This document shows positions 15,730 through 22,392 of a stretch of 64,000 bases of DNA, piece by piece. Each line of letters starts with the position of its first letter. The stretch's first letter is position 1. The notes beneath the pieces were generated by a model. That model had not been told where the DNA came from. It saw only the letters and a program-made list of their open reading frames with translations, and ran no database searches. This DNA comes from Phycisphaeraceae bacterium (GTDB lineage Bacteria; Planctomycetota; Phycisphaerae; Phycisphaerales; Phycisphaeraceae). The stretch is from NCBI GenBank assembly GCA_020851465.1, contig JADZCR010000006.1, positions 620,001-684,000 of the forward strand. The letters run 5' to 3'. The position numbers and the translations under genes were made by a program.

Positions 15730-17571
15730 TCAGGTATTCCGTACTTCGCTCCATCTGGCGAAGACTTTTTCAACAAGTTGTGCAGTCTTGCACCGTGCTT
15801 TCCAAGTATCATTTCGTTCACAGAGTGACGCATCGCGTTTTGCGTCTGCAATGGTCCATCCCTGTTGATCAATTTTTGTATAGGACCATGTCTCGTAGAA
15901 AACCATACCAGCGAAGCGACCATCTGTTTTTACTTGCTCATATTCCTCACTCAGTCTTTCGTTAACCCAGACATAACGGTTGACTGATACCGGAATACCT
16001 CGGTCGTTGCATTGCTGTACCATCTCAGATGCAGTTGCGTCATCGCCCCATATTCCGTCAAACGGTTTGGCAAAAACACGTAACATCGCCTCATCAAGTA
16101 ACCCATCCTTTATCCATGTTCGCCAGTCAAAATCTATATTGGCGGGGTACGCAAGGCGACGAGAGCCCGGTCGCTCGTGAGCAGGGCGAAACCAATCCAC
16201 ATTCAGATTGACCCGCATTTTTTTACCGCGATGAGCAATCGCTCGTTTCGCCTTCCGAAGAAACTCCGTGTAAGCCACTGTTCGTATTGCGGTAATTTCA
16301 GGAATCGGGTTAGTCAGATCGTAAACGTGCTCCATCACGGCTGGATTAAACCCGTAATCTTCCGGCCAGTCGGTATGGCACGAATGGTTTTCGACGCGAA
16401 ATTCAACACCATCTACACCAGCGTCAAGTATCTCAGCGAGGTTCCTCATCCAGTACGACTGTACTTCCGGCTCTGATTCACAAAGAGCGCCGGAGAGATA
16501 GTGGTTTCGACTGCGAGTAAATCCAATCACTCCGCACACTTTGGATTGGCCGGCAGTACGGTGAATATTGGCTCCTCGCTTCGACCCATTCGCCGCATGC
16601 CGTGGTTCATCGAGAGCGACAACCTCCGGACCACGTCCGGTGTCGTACTGCATTCCACCACGAGGAAAGGTTTCTAGTTCAGGAAACCATATCGCTGTCC
16701 CAGTCGCATAGCTGCCGGGAATCTCTCTGCCTTGAGCGTCATAACACGTCACCAGCTTATCCCACGTATTTTCAAAATCAGGTTTCCCATCCTGAAAGTC
16801 AGTGGAAATCGCAAGGTATTGATCTGTAAGATTGAGGCCGGAGAGTGTGAGCACGCGTATGCGATCGCCCTTCTTAGTGACCATATTTCCGTAAAGATCA
16901 CGCACGTCACGAGGACTGGTTACGACGGTTTCGGTTACAGCAAATTTCTCGTCACGCAAGCTGTAATCACAATTACGATTGCTAGTCCAGATTTGAATAT
17001 TCGTTCGCTTTATTCGTGTAGGAGCATCATCCTTCTTAGTAAGTGTGATGGTGGAAATAGGAGCGGTTTCATGACCAGGCCAGAGATCATCTGTTCGGCG
17101 TTTGATTCTTAGATGAGGATTAGCGGTAACAAAAGGGTCAAGCCACGTGTAATATCCACCAAGGTGAGGAATACGCCCCCACTCAAGACCTTCGGATGAA
17201 CCGTCGGCAAAACTAGCCGCCGGACCGGTTTCGTAGGGCTTGAAGTATGCGTACACTTCAATGCCATGACGGTGAGCTGTCTCAACAGCAACACGCAGCG
17301 GATTTCCCAGTAAACAATAGCTGCGGATCATTGAACTCCAGAAGTTCTGATCCTCAGCGATGACTCCTGTATGTACCAGACGCTCAATACCAGCAGGAGC
17401 AAACCATCCGCCATGACCATCTCCGTAGTAAGCCCAAATCACGCGGCCGATACCACGATCTTTCAATGTGGACATCAGGGATTCAATGTGGTCTGGTGTA
17501 ATGGTCAGCGGTGTAGAAAGGGCGTCGTCAGGAAAGTCCACCAGAGTTTCAAGCATGAAAGGCTGGGTCAT
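15730..17571 (-). CDS. Putative TIM-barrel glycoside hydrolase-like protein, unassigned family
   Basis: The product is 613 residues with no signal peptide, so it is probably cytoplasmic. The start at 17571 has GAGG five bases upstream. The N-terminal ~120 residues and the C-terminal ~250 residues look like halves of a (beta/alpha)8 barrel: RGIGRVIWAYYGDGHGGW, GIEVYAYFKPYE, GVDGVEFRVENH and FDGIWGDDATASEM. A beta-rich section (residues ~170-320) interrupts them. Such folds occur in GHL and GH10-like families of planctomycetes, but I cannot assign one or name the catalytic acids. It lies 26 bases after a PfkB-type kinase gene, so the two probably act in one sugar pathway. Confidence 0.6.
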   Translation of the reverse strand: MTQPFMLETLVDFPDDALSTPLTITPDHIESLMSTLKDRGIGRVIWAYYGDGHGGWFAPAGIERLVHTGVIAEDQNFWSSMIRSYCLLGNPLRVAVETAHRHGIEVYAYFKPYETGPAASFADGSSEGLEWGRIPHLGGYYTWLDPFVTANPHLRIKRRTDDLWPGHETAPISTITLTKKDDAPTRIKRTNIQIWTSNRNCDYSLRDEKFAVTETVVTSPRDVRDLYGNMVTKKGDRIRVLTLSGLNLTDQYLAISTDFQDGKPDFENTWDKLVTCYDAQGREIPGSYATGTAIWFPELETFPRGGMQYDTGRGPEVVALDEPRHAANGSKRGANIHRTAGQSKVCGVIGFTRSRNHYLSGALCESEPEVQSYWMRNLAEILDAGVDGVEFRVENHSCHTDWPEDYGFNPAVMEHVYDLTNPIPEITAIRTVAYTEFLRKAKRAIAHRGKKMRVNLNVDWFRPAHERPGSRRLAYPANIDFDWRTWIKDGLLDEAMLRVFAKPFDGIWGDDATASEMVQQCNDRGIPVSVNRYVWVNERLSEEYEQVKTDGRFAGMVFYETWSYTKIDQQGWTIADAKRDASLCERNDTWKARCKTAQLVEKVFARWSEVRNT

Positions 17572-17597: not shown

Positions 17598-18548
17598 TTA
17601 GAGGCCGGCTATACGAGAAGTCTCCGCATAGTTACGCCCCCCGCTCGCGCCGCCCATACTGGTCACACAGCATGCTCCAGCCGCACAACCCAATCGACCT
17701 GCCTGTTCAGCGGGCAATCCTTTAAGCAGGCCGGTGAGCAAGCCAGCGTAAAAACTATCGCCAGCACCCGTAGTATCCACCACAGGCGCAGGGGCTGTAC
17801 AGCCGGCTACAGAGATGTATTCCCCTGCACGAGAGCTCAAAAGCACTCCTTGTTTTCCAAGTTTCACTCCGACTATTCCCGGAGCACCACAATTTCGATA
17901 GGTATCAATGATCTTGTTTGGGTCTTCATGTCCTGTCTGATTTTTCGCTTCCGCAAACGAAGGAACCCAGACATCCAGATACGGGAGCATCCGATCCAGA
18001 GGCTTCATCGAGCCACCGGCCCCGGCAGCGTCCATCGCCGTCTGACAGCCTGTCTCTCGAATCCGGCGAAATACCTCGGGCAGGTCATGTTCAAGGTTTG
18101 GAAGCAGACTGTAATAACCCAACAACATCGATCGCGATCTGGCGAATAAATCGAGGCGCTCAAGGAATGCCCGTGCATCGAGAAGTTTGGGAGCACCGAC
18201 ACAGTGGTAAAAGCTTCGTTCGCCGGATTCTTCTATTAAAACAACAGTAGTGCTGGTCGCGTGGGTTGGGTGTTCGAGCAGTGGTGAATCATCGATGCCT
18301 TCCTGACGGTACAGGTTGCGAACCACGGGCGCCCATGCGTCTGCACCGAGATAGCTTAGCGCCGCGACCTTCATACCCAACCGCGCCATAGTCACGCCTG
18401 CATTGGAGACAATGCCTCCCGCCGCAAGGACGATCGGTTCGCACTGGTGGAGTACGCCGCGACCGATAGGCTTGGAAAGGACTACGGGGCGTGTCAGCAG
18501 ATCCACGACACAGGATCCACAAATAATGCAATCGATGTCTCTCGTCAT
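17598..18548 (-). CDS. PfkB-family carbohydrate kinase
   Basis: The product is 316 residues of the ribokinase/PfkB fold. The N-terminal part has the substrate-pocket GG turn (VLAAGGIVSNAGVTMARLG). The C-terminal signature DTTGAGDSFYAGLLTGLL holds the anion hole and the catalytic Asp near residue 265. It phosphorylates a sugar or nucleoside hydroxyl; the substrate cannot be read from sequence. It is upstream of the glycosidase-like gene in the same operon (26-base gap), so it may phosphorylate the sugar released by that enzyme. No good Shine-Dalgarno is seen at ATG 18548. Confidence 0.88.
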   Translation of the reverse strand: MTRDIDCIICGSCVVDLLTRPVVLSKPIGRGVLHQCEPIVLAAGGIVSNAGVTMARLGMKVAALSYLGADAWAPVVRNLYRQEGIDDSPLLEHPTHATSTTVVLIEESGERSFYHCVGAPKLLDARAFLERLDLFARSRSMLLGYYSLLPNLEHDLPEVFRRIRETGCQTAMDAAGAGGSMKPLDRMLPYLDVWVPSFAEAKNQTGHEDPNKIIDTYRNCGAPGIVGVKLGKQGVLLSSRAGEYISVAGCTAPAPVVDTTGAGDSFYAGLLTGLLKGLPAEQAGRLGCAAGACCVTSMGGASGGRNYAETSRIAGL

Positions 18549-18585: not shown

Positions 18586-20511
18586 TCAGGGATCTTCAAC
18601 CCACGAGGTTGTGACTGCATATGACGTGGCACCGGTGGCTGAGGGAATGCTGACCGTCGTAGCGTCCATGCTGAAAATCGAGTTCTCCAGCATCGTCAGC
18701 GTATAACCCAGAATACTTCCGTTTACGTGTGCATTCCCTGACAACTTCGTATTACGTGAAGGGGCGATTAGCGTCGCATACACCTCTGAGTCGTCCTTGA
18801 ATTCAGTTGGCTGTGATCCAATGGCATAAATAACACATGACGCTGGCTGGGCGGTATTAACATTGATCTCTGCTGCATCTTCAACAGTGAATTTATTCCT
18901 GGCATAGATAACCAGAGATGCGCCGGGAAGTAGTTGGATTTTAGAATTGTTTGACATGGTAAATTCACGATCAACTCGAATCACAACATTCCCGCTGATC
19001 CGAACGACGGCAGAGTTGGACATCGTAAACGTTCGAACCCTTCGGCTTGTGCTGATCGTCGTCGTCCCGCTGGAGTAGGTTTGATTTCCCAAGGAGCTAC
19101 CTAATCCTGAAGGCGTCGTAGCGCGTGGGATCAGCACGGAGGAATCCAGTACGGTCTTGGAACCGGTGATAGTTCCACTCTCAAGAAGTGAGATCACGAC
19201 ACTAACCAATCCTCCTGGGCCGACTTGAGCGTCTCCCTTGATGATGGTGTTGTTGGTTAAAGTTAAGCCCGCTAACAGCGTGGTGTTCGTCGAAACCAGA
19301 GCGTTAGAACCTTGATTAGCTGCACTGTACGCGCCTAAGTCGGAGTCAAAGCTGTCAATTTTTGCGGCACCCTGAAGCAGTATGGACGAGGAAAGACCTA
19401 TTCTTGCGTTGGATACATCACCGGATTGATCGCATCCTGCCGCCCAGTCGAGGGATCGTTGGAGCAATGTTCGTCCATTTGCCGTCAATGAATCGGGATC
19501 GAAACTACTAGTACCCCATGGCATAAAGACGCGGCGACCCTGTGCGGTTCCGCCGTCCTGCAAAATGGCACCAGCTTCGAGGATCGACAGCATGGGCTGC
19601 GAACCTCCAAACACTCGACGCGCCAACTGCGTCAATCCCGCAGCCATTGTCCCCGTCACCATCTGCATCGACTGCGAGCTATTAACAATCGTGAATGTCC
19701 CAGCATTCAATGTCTGAGTGATGTAATGCGAATCATTGGTAATCTTGATCTGCGTAACATTGAGCGCAGAAGCCGACCTGGAAGCGAGACCGAAGTTTTG
19801 CAGGAACGCTCCGGTTTCAATGACCATACCCAAACCGCTTGGCTCGAGTTTGTTGGCCATTGCGTTGGAGTTCATGGTTGAAGACACATAGATGATGTCC
19901 ACGTCGTCCGAGGCGTCATCAAGCTCGCTCTGCGATGCGTTTTGACTTAACAACGTAACCGTCCAACCCCACCCCTCGAGCATGGATTTACGAGTTGTAT
20001 CCGCGGCTGAAAGCGAGCCGGCATTGGGCACGACCATCAGCACGGTTGGTGTATTGGCTGGGGTGGTGGTAATCAGGGCGCGGACTGTGTGTGAGACGCC
20101 GCCATATTTACCCACGCTGGTGATGGTGCAAGAGTCCGTAGGATCGTCGTTGAGATTGCCATCGCCCTCTACCTCATTCGTGGTGTAGTTGTACGCTCCG
20201 TCATCACCTCGCACTGTGAATTGACCACCAGCATATGAGGTGTTCTGCGTCCATATGCCATTGGGTAAGTTGCTGCGCCAGCTTGAATCCGCTTTAACCT
20301 TAGCAATCGCGAGCTGTAATCCGGTTTCCGCAATGTCGCGCGCACGATCCTGATATTCAAGGTTTCTTCCTACCCCCATAGCTGTTGATTGACTGGCTAA
20401 GAAACCCATCGCCAGAATCGTGGCTACACCGACTGCCATCAAAACCATGAGCATGGCAATACCTTTACGGGCTGCCATGCGGGATCGGCGGCTATAACGG
20501 CTTGTGACCAT
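18586..20511 (-). CDS. PilX-like pseudopilin with amidotransferase-like and beta-solenoid domains
   Basis: The start at 20511 has GGGAGA upstream. Residues 1-17 are basic and end in KG, then a hydrophobic helix IAMLMVLMAVGVAT, as in PilX-type minor pilins without the usual Glu5. Residues ~155-360 read as a class-I glutamine-amidotransferase-like fold: VLMVVPNAGSLSAADTTRK, DDVDIIYVSSTM, GMVIETGAFL and, at the end, SLTANGRTLLQRSLDWAAG. This pattern is known from secreted multidomain proteins, not from pilins. Residues ~372-641 are Ser/Thr/Asn-rich short beta repeats with 'TMSNNSKI' and 'LSGNAHVNGSI', a solenoid-like tail similar to DUF7305 regions. It ends the three-gene minus-strand pseudopilin operon. 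Confidence 0.8.
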   Translation of the reverse strand: MVTSRYSRRSRMAARKGIAMLMVLMAVGVATILAMGFLASQSTAMGVGRNLEYQDRARDIAETGLQLAIAKVKADSSWRSNLPNGIWTQNTSYAGGQFTVRGDDGAYNYTTNEVEGDGNLNDDPTDSCTITSVGKYGGVSHTVRALITTTPANTPTVLMVVPNAGSLSAADTTRKSMLEGWGWTVTLLSQNASQSELDDASDDVDIIYVSSTMNSNAMANKLEPSGLGMVIETGAFLQNFGLASRSASALNVTQIKITNDSHYITQTLNAGTFTIVNSSQSMQMVTGTMAAGLTQLARRVFGGSQPMLSILEAGAILQDGGTAQGRRVFMPWGTSSFDPDSLTANGRTLLQRSLDWAAGCDQSGDVSNARIGLSSSILLQGAAKIDSFDSDLGAYSAANQGSNALVSTNTTLLAGLTLTNNTIIKGDAQVGPGGLVSVVISLLESGTITGSKTVLDSSVLIPRATTPSGLGSSLGNQTYSSGTTTISTSRRVRTFTMSNSAVVRISGNVVIRVDREFTMSNNSKIQLLPGASLVIYARNKFTVEDAAEINVNTAQPASCVIYAIGSQPTEFKDDSEVYATLIAPSRNTKLSGNAHVNGSILGYTLTMLENSIFSMDATTVSIPSATGATSYAVTTSWVEDP

Positions 20512-20535: not shown

Positions 20536-21171
20536 TCACAATGATGAGCGTAGAGCTGCCGCTCCACAGACTGTCGCGGTTTTTGTTCCAGTACCTATTG
20601 TCAAGCGGTAACTAACCAAACGTGCGTTCTGTGTCGCTAGATTGTCAAGCGACATCGTCCAGCCGTACAGTGATTGACACCAGACTTCCGAAGGGAAATT
20701 GGGTGTCCCTTTCAACGCATTCGTCGTTGCAGCAAAGTCCGCGTTGATCGCATAGGCGGTATCCGCAGCATCGATCTGGGCCTGCGTATAGCCAGTAGGA
20801 AATGATGCTTTGTACGACACCAGAGAATGTGTTGCCGAGTCATATTCGATGCGTCTGATTTCGGAAAGATCGGGCGAACCGTTGGCACGACTGTCCCGCA
20901 TCCAGAGCACAATGTAGTTGCTACCGATCGCCAAAATACTCTTTGCGCTGCGAATCGACGCATCAAGACGTCCCGCAACGACTTTATGCTGAATAACTAG
21001 GCTGCGTGAGTCTGCGCCATCATCAGTACCACGTGCGATAGCAAACAACATGGCGGAGATCGCACCGCCTACCATTACGGTGACCATCATCGAAAGCAAT
21101 AGCTCAAGAAAAGTGAAACCGCTATTGGTGCGGTATCGACGTGGCCAATGGTTGCTACGTGCTGCTTTCAT
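20536..21171 (-). CDS. PilW-like prepilin/pseudopilin
   Basis: The product is 211 residues. A basic leader ends in RTNSG, followed by FTFLELLLSMMVTVMVGGAI: a class III prepilin signal with Gly at -1, Phe at +1 and Glu at +5. The rest is a pilin-like globular domain with few cysteines. The start ATG overlaps the stop of the preceding PilV-like gene by four bases and the next gene starts 24 bases on. This places it as the second minor pilin of a type IV pilus or type II secretion pseudopilus. The partners (PilB, PilC, PilQ) are not in the window. Confidence 0.85.
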   Translation of the reverse strand: MKAARSNHWPRRYRTNSGFTFLELLLSMMVTVMVGGAISAMLFAIARGTDDGADSRSLVIQHKVVAGRLDASIRSAKSILAIGSNYIVLWMRDSRANGSPDLSEIRRIEYDSATHSLVSYKASFPTGYTQAQIDAADTAYAINADFAATTNALKGTPNFPSEVWCQSLYGWTMSLDNLATQNARLVSYRLTIGTGTKTATVCGAAALRSSL

Positions 21172-21665
21172 GGAGCGGGTACAAATCTCGTTAATGTCCA
21201 GCTTGACCCACCTGGTGTCAGGGTAACCGTCACAGTTACAGCGATACCGCTGATCGGTGTTTGACTCAGATTTGCTACGGACATCGTGGTGTATGTTGCA
21301 GTTGCAGAACGGGTATAGGATTGCCAGTCGCTGGGATAGCTGACGCCCTGCGCATCAGCAAGTGTGTTTACCGATTCACTGAATCCGTTGTAATCGTCGA
21401 TGTTATCCCGACCGGTACGACCTGATTCTCCAGAGTCCGGCCCCGGCGTTGTCCCGCCCTGCGGATCGGCATAGGGTTTCGACACAATCTCTTCCATCAA
21501 CGCCTCAGCCAATGCAGTCCCTCGGAGCCGTTTGAGGACTACATCCGTTTCCCGATGGCCAACCGAAACAGCCTGAGCAATTGCTGCAACAACGAAGGCC
21601 AGAACAGCCGAGGCCATCAGTGCTTCCAGCAATGTAAACCCGTTGGTTTTTCCAATAGACATCAT
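21168..21665 (-). CDS. PilV/GspI-like prepilin/pseudopilin
   Basis: The product is 165 residues: MMSIGKTNG then FTLLEALMASAVLAFVVAAI, a class III prepilin signal with Gly -1, Phe +1 and Glu +5. The C-terminal part has a beta-rich domain with repeated Thr/Val strands. It is the first gene of the three-gene set with the PilW-like and PilX-like genes. It is divergent from the FimT/GspH-like gene, with ~190 bases between starts that must hold two promoters. Confidence 0.88.
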   Translation of the reverse strand: MMSIGKTNGFTLLEALMASAVLAFVVAAIAQAVSVGHRETDVVLKRLRGTALAEALMEEIVSKPYADPQGGTTPGPDSGESGRTGRDNIDDYNGFSESVNTLADAQGVSYPSDWQSYTRSATATYTTMSVANLSQTPISGIAVTVTVTLTPGGSSWTLTRFVPAP

Positions 21666-21855
21666 GTTTCATCCGGCGGCTACCGCCTGGCGTTCTAAGC
21701 GAGAAGCTCATACAAAATCGGCGACATCTCTGAATCAAATTACTGCTTCAATATGATCGAATGATGCAACCACACTCAATATCTGGTTTGTTATGCCTAT
21801 GCGGGTTGGGTAAGTGCTGGACTGGCCTGAGATCATTAGCAAATGGCGGCCAAAA

Positions 21856-22392
21856 ATGGTCGATACACGAGAAGTGAATGCTTTCTGTCCAATGCGGCGG
21901 TCACGCGATGCGGGCTTTTCTTTTCTAGAAATGCTTGCAGTAATTACGATCCTGGCCACGCTCGGCGTGCTGGTTGTACCGCATCTATCTGACTCGCATA
22001 CGAATAAGCTTCGCGCCGCCGCCGAGCTATTTGTAGCCGACTGCGAATACGCACAGGCGGAATCAATCGCACATGGGGATGACTTGCGCATGGTGACGAT
22101 CGCATCACCAACAAAATATTTTATTAGTGCAACCAGCGCGGCAACCACACCCATCATTGATCCGGTGACCAAAGGGGCCTACTCCGTAACCTATGGATCC
22201 GGCCGCGCCAACATGCTTTCGGATGTCACAATCTCAAGCAATCTGGTCAATACAACACGATTTGGATTCGGAATGTACGGCGAGCTGACTCAACTGACCG
22301 ACGTGATCGTCACTCTCTCGTGCGGCGGATCGACCTGCGTCGTCACCATCAAAGCTCCCTCAGGGCAAGCGATCATTGGCACCATCAATTAA
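21856..22392 (+). CDS. FimT/GspH-like prepilin/pseudopilin
   Basis: The product is 178 residues from ATG 21856; an ATG at 21892 and an upstream GTG at 21814 are also possible. The prepilin leader ends in RDAG, then FSFLEMLAVITILATLGVLVV with Glu at +5. The rest follows the GspH/FimT pattern: a helix with AAELFVADCEYAQAESIAHG, then beta strands. Two Cys in LSCGGSTC near the end may form a disulfide. It completes a four-member minor pilin set with the divergent operon. Confidence 0.87.
   Translation: MVDTREVNAFCPMRRSRDAGFSFLEMLAVITILATLGVLVVPHLSDSHTNKLRAAAELFVADCEYAQAESIAHGDDLRMVTIASPTKYFISATSAATTPIIDPVTKGAYSVTYGSGRANMLSDVTISSNLVNTTRFGFGMYGELTQLTDVIVTLSCGGSTCVVTIKAPSGQAIIGTIN

Follow-up and report, generated by a model that had tools for sequence, protein, structure and literature searches.

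A GspK-like pseudopilin of a Phycisphaeraceae bacterium with a predicted GATase1-fold module and a beta-solenoid

Type 4 filaments are found almost universally, and what their tips bind determines what the cell can stick to, move on or take up. Among the heads known from such tips are vWA modules, lectin modules, PilY1 and the solenoid of ComZ. HIJK complexes sit at the filament tip with the bulky K subunit as a cap, and it is there that modular pilins display their functional heads (PMC9934059, PMC8179133). Two modular pilins of Streptococcus sanguinis, PilB and PilC, carry a vWA and a lectin module, respectively (PMC8179133, PMC9934059); PilC binds glycans through its lectin module at the tip (PMC9934059). 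In ComZ, the GspK-like competence tip pilin of Thermus thermophilus, the pilin sheet contains a solenoid, the nearest relative of which is 4NU2 (PMC6561018). The C-terminal domain of SGBP-lev (Bt1761 of Bacteroides thetaiotaomicron) is levan-binding and similar to the ThuA-like structure 1T0B (PMC7618045). Modular tip pilins, large minor pilins among them (PMC8179133, PMC6561018, PMC9934059), are already known, and so are a solenoid on a pilin and a ThuA/GATase fold on a glycan-binding protein. Their combination, and the module as an uncurated family distributed over three tip subunits and at least two phyla, were found neither in the literature nor in Pfam/NCBIfam searches; the literature searches, which concerned amidotransferase-like pilins and Phycisphaerae LamG pilins and drew mainly on open-access papers, gave nothing relevant. 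Many modular pilins are predicted to have been missed since their modules have no database signature (PMC8179133). The pilin described here is a case of this prediction, and the profile of its module now allows the family to be searched for and tested.

The gene is carried by a 64,000-nucleotide stretch of Phycisphaeraceae DNA (hereafter the window, to which all coordinates without a locus name refer). The reading which we favour, with somewhat better than even confidence, is that the gene encodes a modular tip pilin similar to ComZ, on which the module is a head without catalytic activity that probably binds glycans. The gene and its parts are as follows.

18586..20511, (-) strand: gene of a K-type modular pseudopilin, 641 aa (open reading frame; partial match to the GspK model; relatives of the same architecture)
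20290..20511, (-) strand: prepilin leader and N-terminal helix, residues 1-74 (sequence; helix 9-74 in the model)
20071..20259, (-) strand: four-stranded pilin sheet, residues 85-147 (AlphaFold strands 85-93, 96-104, 128-136 and 139-147)
19432..20049, (-) strand: predicted GATase1-fold module, residues 155-360 (AlphaFold; PDB fold matches; 73 aligned relatives)
18664..19422, (-) strand: beta-solenoid, residues 364-616, with DUF7305 in its C-terminal half (Pfam PF23981; ice-binding-protein fold)
18589..18621, (-) strand: conserved C-terminal tail YAVTTSWVEDP (Trp enrichment in related tails)

The 641-residue frame and the limits of the module (residues 155-360 correspond exactly to 20049-19432) are those given in the first-pass annotation; the PilX-like label which it gave to the pilin part has to be exchanged for GspK/ComZ-type, in an H-I-J-K cassette. 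The GspK-like prepilin stalk occupies residues 1-150 of the 641. Library scans of the whole protein gave two matches only. The GspK equivalog NF037980 of NCBIfam matched the N-terminal part (residues 16-91, E 1.4e-9) with 37.9 bits, which is below its curated cut-off of 130, and Pfam DUF7305 (PF23981) matched residues 506-616 with 38.8 bits, above its gathering cut-off of 27; for residues 155-360 no Pfam or NCBIfam model matched. The prepilin site reads ARKG followed by IAMLMVLMAV. Cleavage is predicted after Gly17, so that the mature protein would start with IAMLM; given this site, mature residue 5 is Met, and Glu is absent from this position as it is in K subunits of HIJK tip complexes (GspK/PilX/ComZ type). 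The prepilin-type leader, the hydrophobic N-terminal helix and the pilin beta-sheet follow one another as in the modular type 4 pilins.

At the other end of the protein, 38 of 48 related tails have a Trp among their final 12 residues, versus 18% expected from composition (the 48 tails are related rows and thus no independent sample for this comparison). K-type proteins end alike, with a motif of the kind FxVRWxExP, whatever modules precede it, and the module-free K-type pilins of L098, L100 and L058 have similar C-terminal ends. The tail YAVTTSWVEDP may form the final strand of the pilin sheet, and the shared ends suggest that all heads are inserted before that strand, in the manner of ComZ, although the tail lies in a low-confidence part of the model. 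Among its kind the window protein belongs to the shorter forms; it is similar to the first ~620 residues of the proteins of L074 and L089, and the contiguous order pilin, module and solenoid is also found in L036/L074, L035/L089 and L037. Since this order recurs in other genomes and invariant residues are shared by 73 modules, we are dealing with a single gene and not with a chance fusion of two unrelated ones. The pilin cassette showed no excess of promoter- or terminator-like sites.

The full-length AlphaFold2 model, made from an alignment of 40 rows, had a mean pLDDT of 88.2 and a pTM of 0.58, so that the relative placing of the domains is not to be read from it; its low-confidence parts were limited to residues 1-9, 362-367 and 620-641, the last being below 50. 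The module was mostly above 90 within that model, and reached a pLDDT of 96.4 and a pTM of 0.92 when modelled alone. Its topology is beta-alpha-beta-alpha-beta-alpha-beta plus a final helix. The best PDB counterpart quoted here was 1i7q_B, the GATase subunit (TrpG) of an anthranilate synthase (Z 16.7, 2.6 A, 176 residues), along with 1i1q_B (Z 15.8), the ThuA-like 1t0b_G (Z 15.6, 3.5 A, 196 residues), the N-terminal domain of IFT52 (Z 14.2) and the acylase 8i5a, a non-amidotransferase enzyme; when the full-length model was compared, the surface protein 8aa2_G, which binds levan, gave Z 15.8 (3.1 A, 192 residues). Residues 155-360 are thus predicted to form a class I glutamine amidotransferase/ThuA-like fold, in agreement with the amidotransferase-like domain of the first-pass annotation as far as the fold is concerned. 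Single-sequence and profile searches of PDB sequences with the module gave chance matches only, the profile matching neither the ThuA-like proteins nor SGBP-lev in spite of their similar folds, and a Pfam scan of 30 homologous modules revealed no family in common; the fold assignment rests therefore on structure prediction.

The solenoid tail, also announced from the sequence, was recovered as residues 364-616. It matches the ice-binding proteins 4nuh and 4nu2 (Z 18.9 for both, 194-196 residues), whereas its profile matched no solved structure by sequence. Ice binding by the solenoid was set aside: the ComZ solenoid has the same resemblance and yet no conserved ice-binding residues (PMC6561018). 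With an ice-binding-protein-fold solenoid on a GspK-like stalk, the protein resembles ComZ in these two parts. The ComZ structure itself, 6qvi, was matched over both domains (Z 14.8, rmsd 14.3 A over 297 residues); the large rmsd is expected if the ComZ domains are placed differently. As the stalk type and the solenoid fold are those of ComZ (PMC6561018), it may be asked whether the protein is, like ComZ, a DNA receptor on a competence-pilus tip. We hold this to be improbable: ComZ has no GATase-fold module, no sequence similarity between ComZ and the window protein was detected, and relatives of the latter add LamG or CBM96 to the module.

In the 73 aligned modules, Arg326, Arg327 and Trp356 are invariant; His262, Pro331 and Gly228 are each present in 71, Glu232 is present in 58, and no conserved Cys exists across the 73 sequences. 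The column of the nucleophile elbow is occupied by N, T, I or S, and by Cys in five modules; the window protein has Ile and Glu there, GVVxE forming the strand and turn where amidotransferases hold their nucleophile Cys. The segment RRVxLPWG sits where the GATase motif FHPE, with its His and Glu, is expected, and shows Leu/Met and Trp instead (this equivalence was assigned by strand order and the conserved Pro, not by a measured superposition). The module appears, from these residues, to be devoid of the Cys-His-Glu triad and its amidotransferase site seems to have been lost. Of the amidotransferase-like domain initially proposed, the fold is thus retained and an active amidotransferase is not: on the strand-order assignment, a module whose common motif has no triad should not hydrolyse glutamine. 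Could the module be another enzyme, acting at the tip on an extracellular substrate through Glu232, His262 and Arg326/Arg327? The conservation of these residues and the position of Glu232 directly after the fourth strand, at the nucleophile-elbow site of the fold, point in that direction, and non-amidotransferase enzymes such as the acylase cited above use the same fold. We nevertheless give this very little credit, Glu232 being replaced in about one fifth of the modules and the tandem copies set next to lectin-like modules resembling binding repeats. A binding head remains our preferred reading of the module.

The relatives tell what company the module keeps. The window protein was matched in 41 of 61 sampled genomes and, from protein matches and open reading frame analysis, the module is present on a K-type pilin in at least 22 of 37 family genomes. 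In the commonest form, of ~1300 residues, pilin, module, LamG, solenoid and further LamG succeed one another; the window protein carries the module and the solenoid only, without LamG or CBM. Module-less forms also occur (L037:1604-2896, L059, L061 and L062), and in L043 a LamG domain lies between pilin and solenoid, at the place of the module. A scan of named genomes, with a profile built from seven closer modules, yielded 31 loci, mostly from Phycisphaerae, other Planctomycetota and Gammaproteobacteria, with a minority from Deltaproteobacteria, Acidimicrobiales and Gemmatimonadota; distant matches were found in L101-L103. In Gammaproteobacteria, K-like pilins bear one to three modules, often in tandem, with CBM96/DNRLRE and LamG. 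A broader extracellular family, of actinobacterial and myxobacterial secreted proteins, has a like motif pattern, which we take as a lead only. A search for PilY1 gave no match in 41 relatives and none in the control genomes either, so that no conclusion is drawn from it. Some cassettes have two K-like genes, both with the module in L041 and L046, one with and one without in L073.

The module is not confined to K subunits. With carrier types assigned from the N-terminal motif and gene order, it was found on I-type pseudopilins in L096, L097 and L100 and on J-type pseudopilins in L064, L088, L126 and L128; a short module-less K-type gene comes next in L097, L100, L126 and L128. A quick tree of 82 modules has many weak forks and serves here only to show how I- and J-borne modules are spread over supported branches. 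At least three changes for the J carriers and at least two for the I carriers are needed to account for its well-supported branches, which fits repeated grafting. Nor is the module specific to pili: as the first-pass annotation had it, secreted multidomain proteins carry it too, L086, L127 and L133 being Sec-type examples. A profile search found it in 18 of 392 genomes of the phylum, on a pseudopilin in 11 and on other, mostly secreted, proteins in seven (N-termini read by eye). Two further carriers may be mentioned. L065:1780-5235, on a contig shared with L087, codes for a Sec-type secreted protein made up of LamG, FG-GAP repeats, the module and another LamG. At L131:3633-7853, residues 950-1156 of a 1406-residue protein match the module, weakly but significantly (E 1.3e-19); the start of this protein resembles a Ser/Thr kinase and not a pilin.

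Given its occurrence on tip pilins of distant bacteria, the GATase-fold head is probably a reusable sticky module. We would go further only tentatively, at slightly less than even confidence: the module may found an uncurated family of dead GATase1-fold binding heads, moved between the I, J and K tip subunits of Planctomycetota and Pseudomonadota and replaceable by LamG at the same site, the tip complex being a standard socket for swappable heads.

Three further pilin genes complete the cassette.

20536..21171, (-) strand: J-type minor pseudopilin (cassette position and prepilin motif; N_methyl E 0.039, under cut-off; order kept in relatives)
21168..21665, (-) strand: I-type minor pseudopilin (N_methyl over cut-off; GspI model E 1.4e-4, under cut-off)
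21814..22392, (+) strand: H-type minor pseudopilin (N_methyl over cut-off; GspH model E 1.9e-6, under cut-off)

The I-type and J-type genes precede the K gene on the same strand; together with the H-type gene they form the company expected for a K subunit. The H-type gene, whose true start may be further downstream, is divergent from I-J-K, a layout repeated in L053, L074, L078 and L084. Beside the cassette, 15730-17571 on the (-) strand codes for a 613-residue protein without Pfam or NCBIfam match, adjoined by a PfkB-type sugar kinase gene (17598-18548). The presence of a PilB/PilC/secretin machinery in this genome, in line with the co-occurrence check proposed at the outset, is supported: the genome contains PilB/GspE-like ATPases, T2SSF genes, prepilin peptidase matches and two secretins. 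Within one 18-kb stretch lie genes for a GspG-like pilin, PilM, PilN, a secretin of the PilQ/GspD type and a PilB-like ATPase that has an MshEN domain. The H / I-J-K cassette does not adjoin the machinery genes. In the gammaproteobacterial locus L077 the order is T2SSF, GspG-like pilin, other pilins, K, GGDEF, PilM, an unnamed frame and PilO, and in L092 a gene with secretin N-terminal domains comes after the module locus. The GGDEF diguanylate cyclase gene (L077:8587-9732, E 5.5e-33), between the module-bearing K gene and PilM, hints at c-di-GMP control; L080:8973-10196 and L083:7950-9104 are its counterparts by position only. The MshEN domain of the window genome's ATPase is of the c-di-GMP-binding type.

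Alternatively, the protein might sit as tip subunit on a pseudopilus for type II-like secretion, in which module and solenoid would bind an exoprotein and push it through the secretin and no adhesin would be involved. The stalk fits GspK best, the major pilin and the H- and I-type genes resemble Gsp pseudopilins, and the secretin and ATPase score about equally with type 4 pilus and type II secretion models. The machinery loci, however, have PilM, PilN or PilO, which are typical of type 4 pili, and tandem lectin-like heads of more than 1000 residues are bulky for a short piston beneath the outer membrane. We consider this secretion function unlikely, while ranking it ahead of the other two alternatives.

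The tip-pilin reading is backed by the type 4 pilus machinery of the genome and by the gammaproteobacterial module gene lying inside a T2SSF-pilin-PilM-PilO locus. Synthesised as a prepilin, the protein would use its K-type stalk to cap the minor-pilin complex of H, I, J and K subunits where a type 4 filament ends, the filament being powered by the PilB/PilC/PilMN/secretin machinery of the genome. Fold, architecture, cassette, conservation, the lack of a conserved triad and the machinery genes were established computationally, whereas processing, K position and tip location are inferred from homology. The stalk would bear two heads, the GATase1-fold module and the ComZ-like beta-solenoid, probably between the pilin sheet and the C-terminal strand. 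The module, its fold kept and its triad seemingly lost, would act as a binding head whose most likely ligand is extracellular polysaccharide; through this head the filament tip may grip glycan surfaces or particles. A glycan as ligand is suggested by the LamG and CBM96 companions, both carbohydrate-binding families, and by the levan-binding structural relative. Against this reading stand the non-pilin carriers in seven of the 18 module-bearing phylum genomes, the distance of the cassette from the machinery genes, the missing LamG or CBM of the window protein and the low confidence of the model at the C-terminal strand; moreover, a common fold shows no function, and enzymes use the GATase fold too.

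Comparison with known systems places the window protein as follows. It shares with ComZ the GspK-like stalk, the large ice-binding-fold solenoid, the proposed tip position and the adjacent pilin genes; ComZ differs in having no GATase-fold module, and DNA binding and insertion before the last strand are known for ComZ, the latter being suggested for the window protein. With GspK, the tip pseudopilin of type II secretion, it has in common a similar N-terminal stalk, the absence of Glu at position 5 and the H-I-J-K order, but GspK has an inserted alpha-helical domain (PMC6561018) where the window protein has a GATase-fold module and a solenoid. PilB and PilC of S. sanguinis likewise join a pilin module to a general-purpose ectodomain presented at the tip; their ectodomains are others, whereas no database model exists for the present module, which recurs on subunits of the I, J and K types. 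SGBP-lev has an extracellular ThuA/GATase-fold domain as well, which in its case binds glycan; it is a lipoprotein of an outer-membrane uptake complex and not a pilin, and the structural alignment shows ~14% identity. TrpG and other class I glutamine amidotransferases share the fold, but the module has no conserved Cys and, on the strand-based assignment, has its His and Glu replaced; unlike TrpG it is borne by a prepilin, is presumably extracytoplasmic and has no synthase partner in sight. To the heads described for these filaments, the window protein would add one of an enzyme fold, present in at least two phyla and on three different tip subunits.
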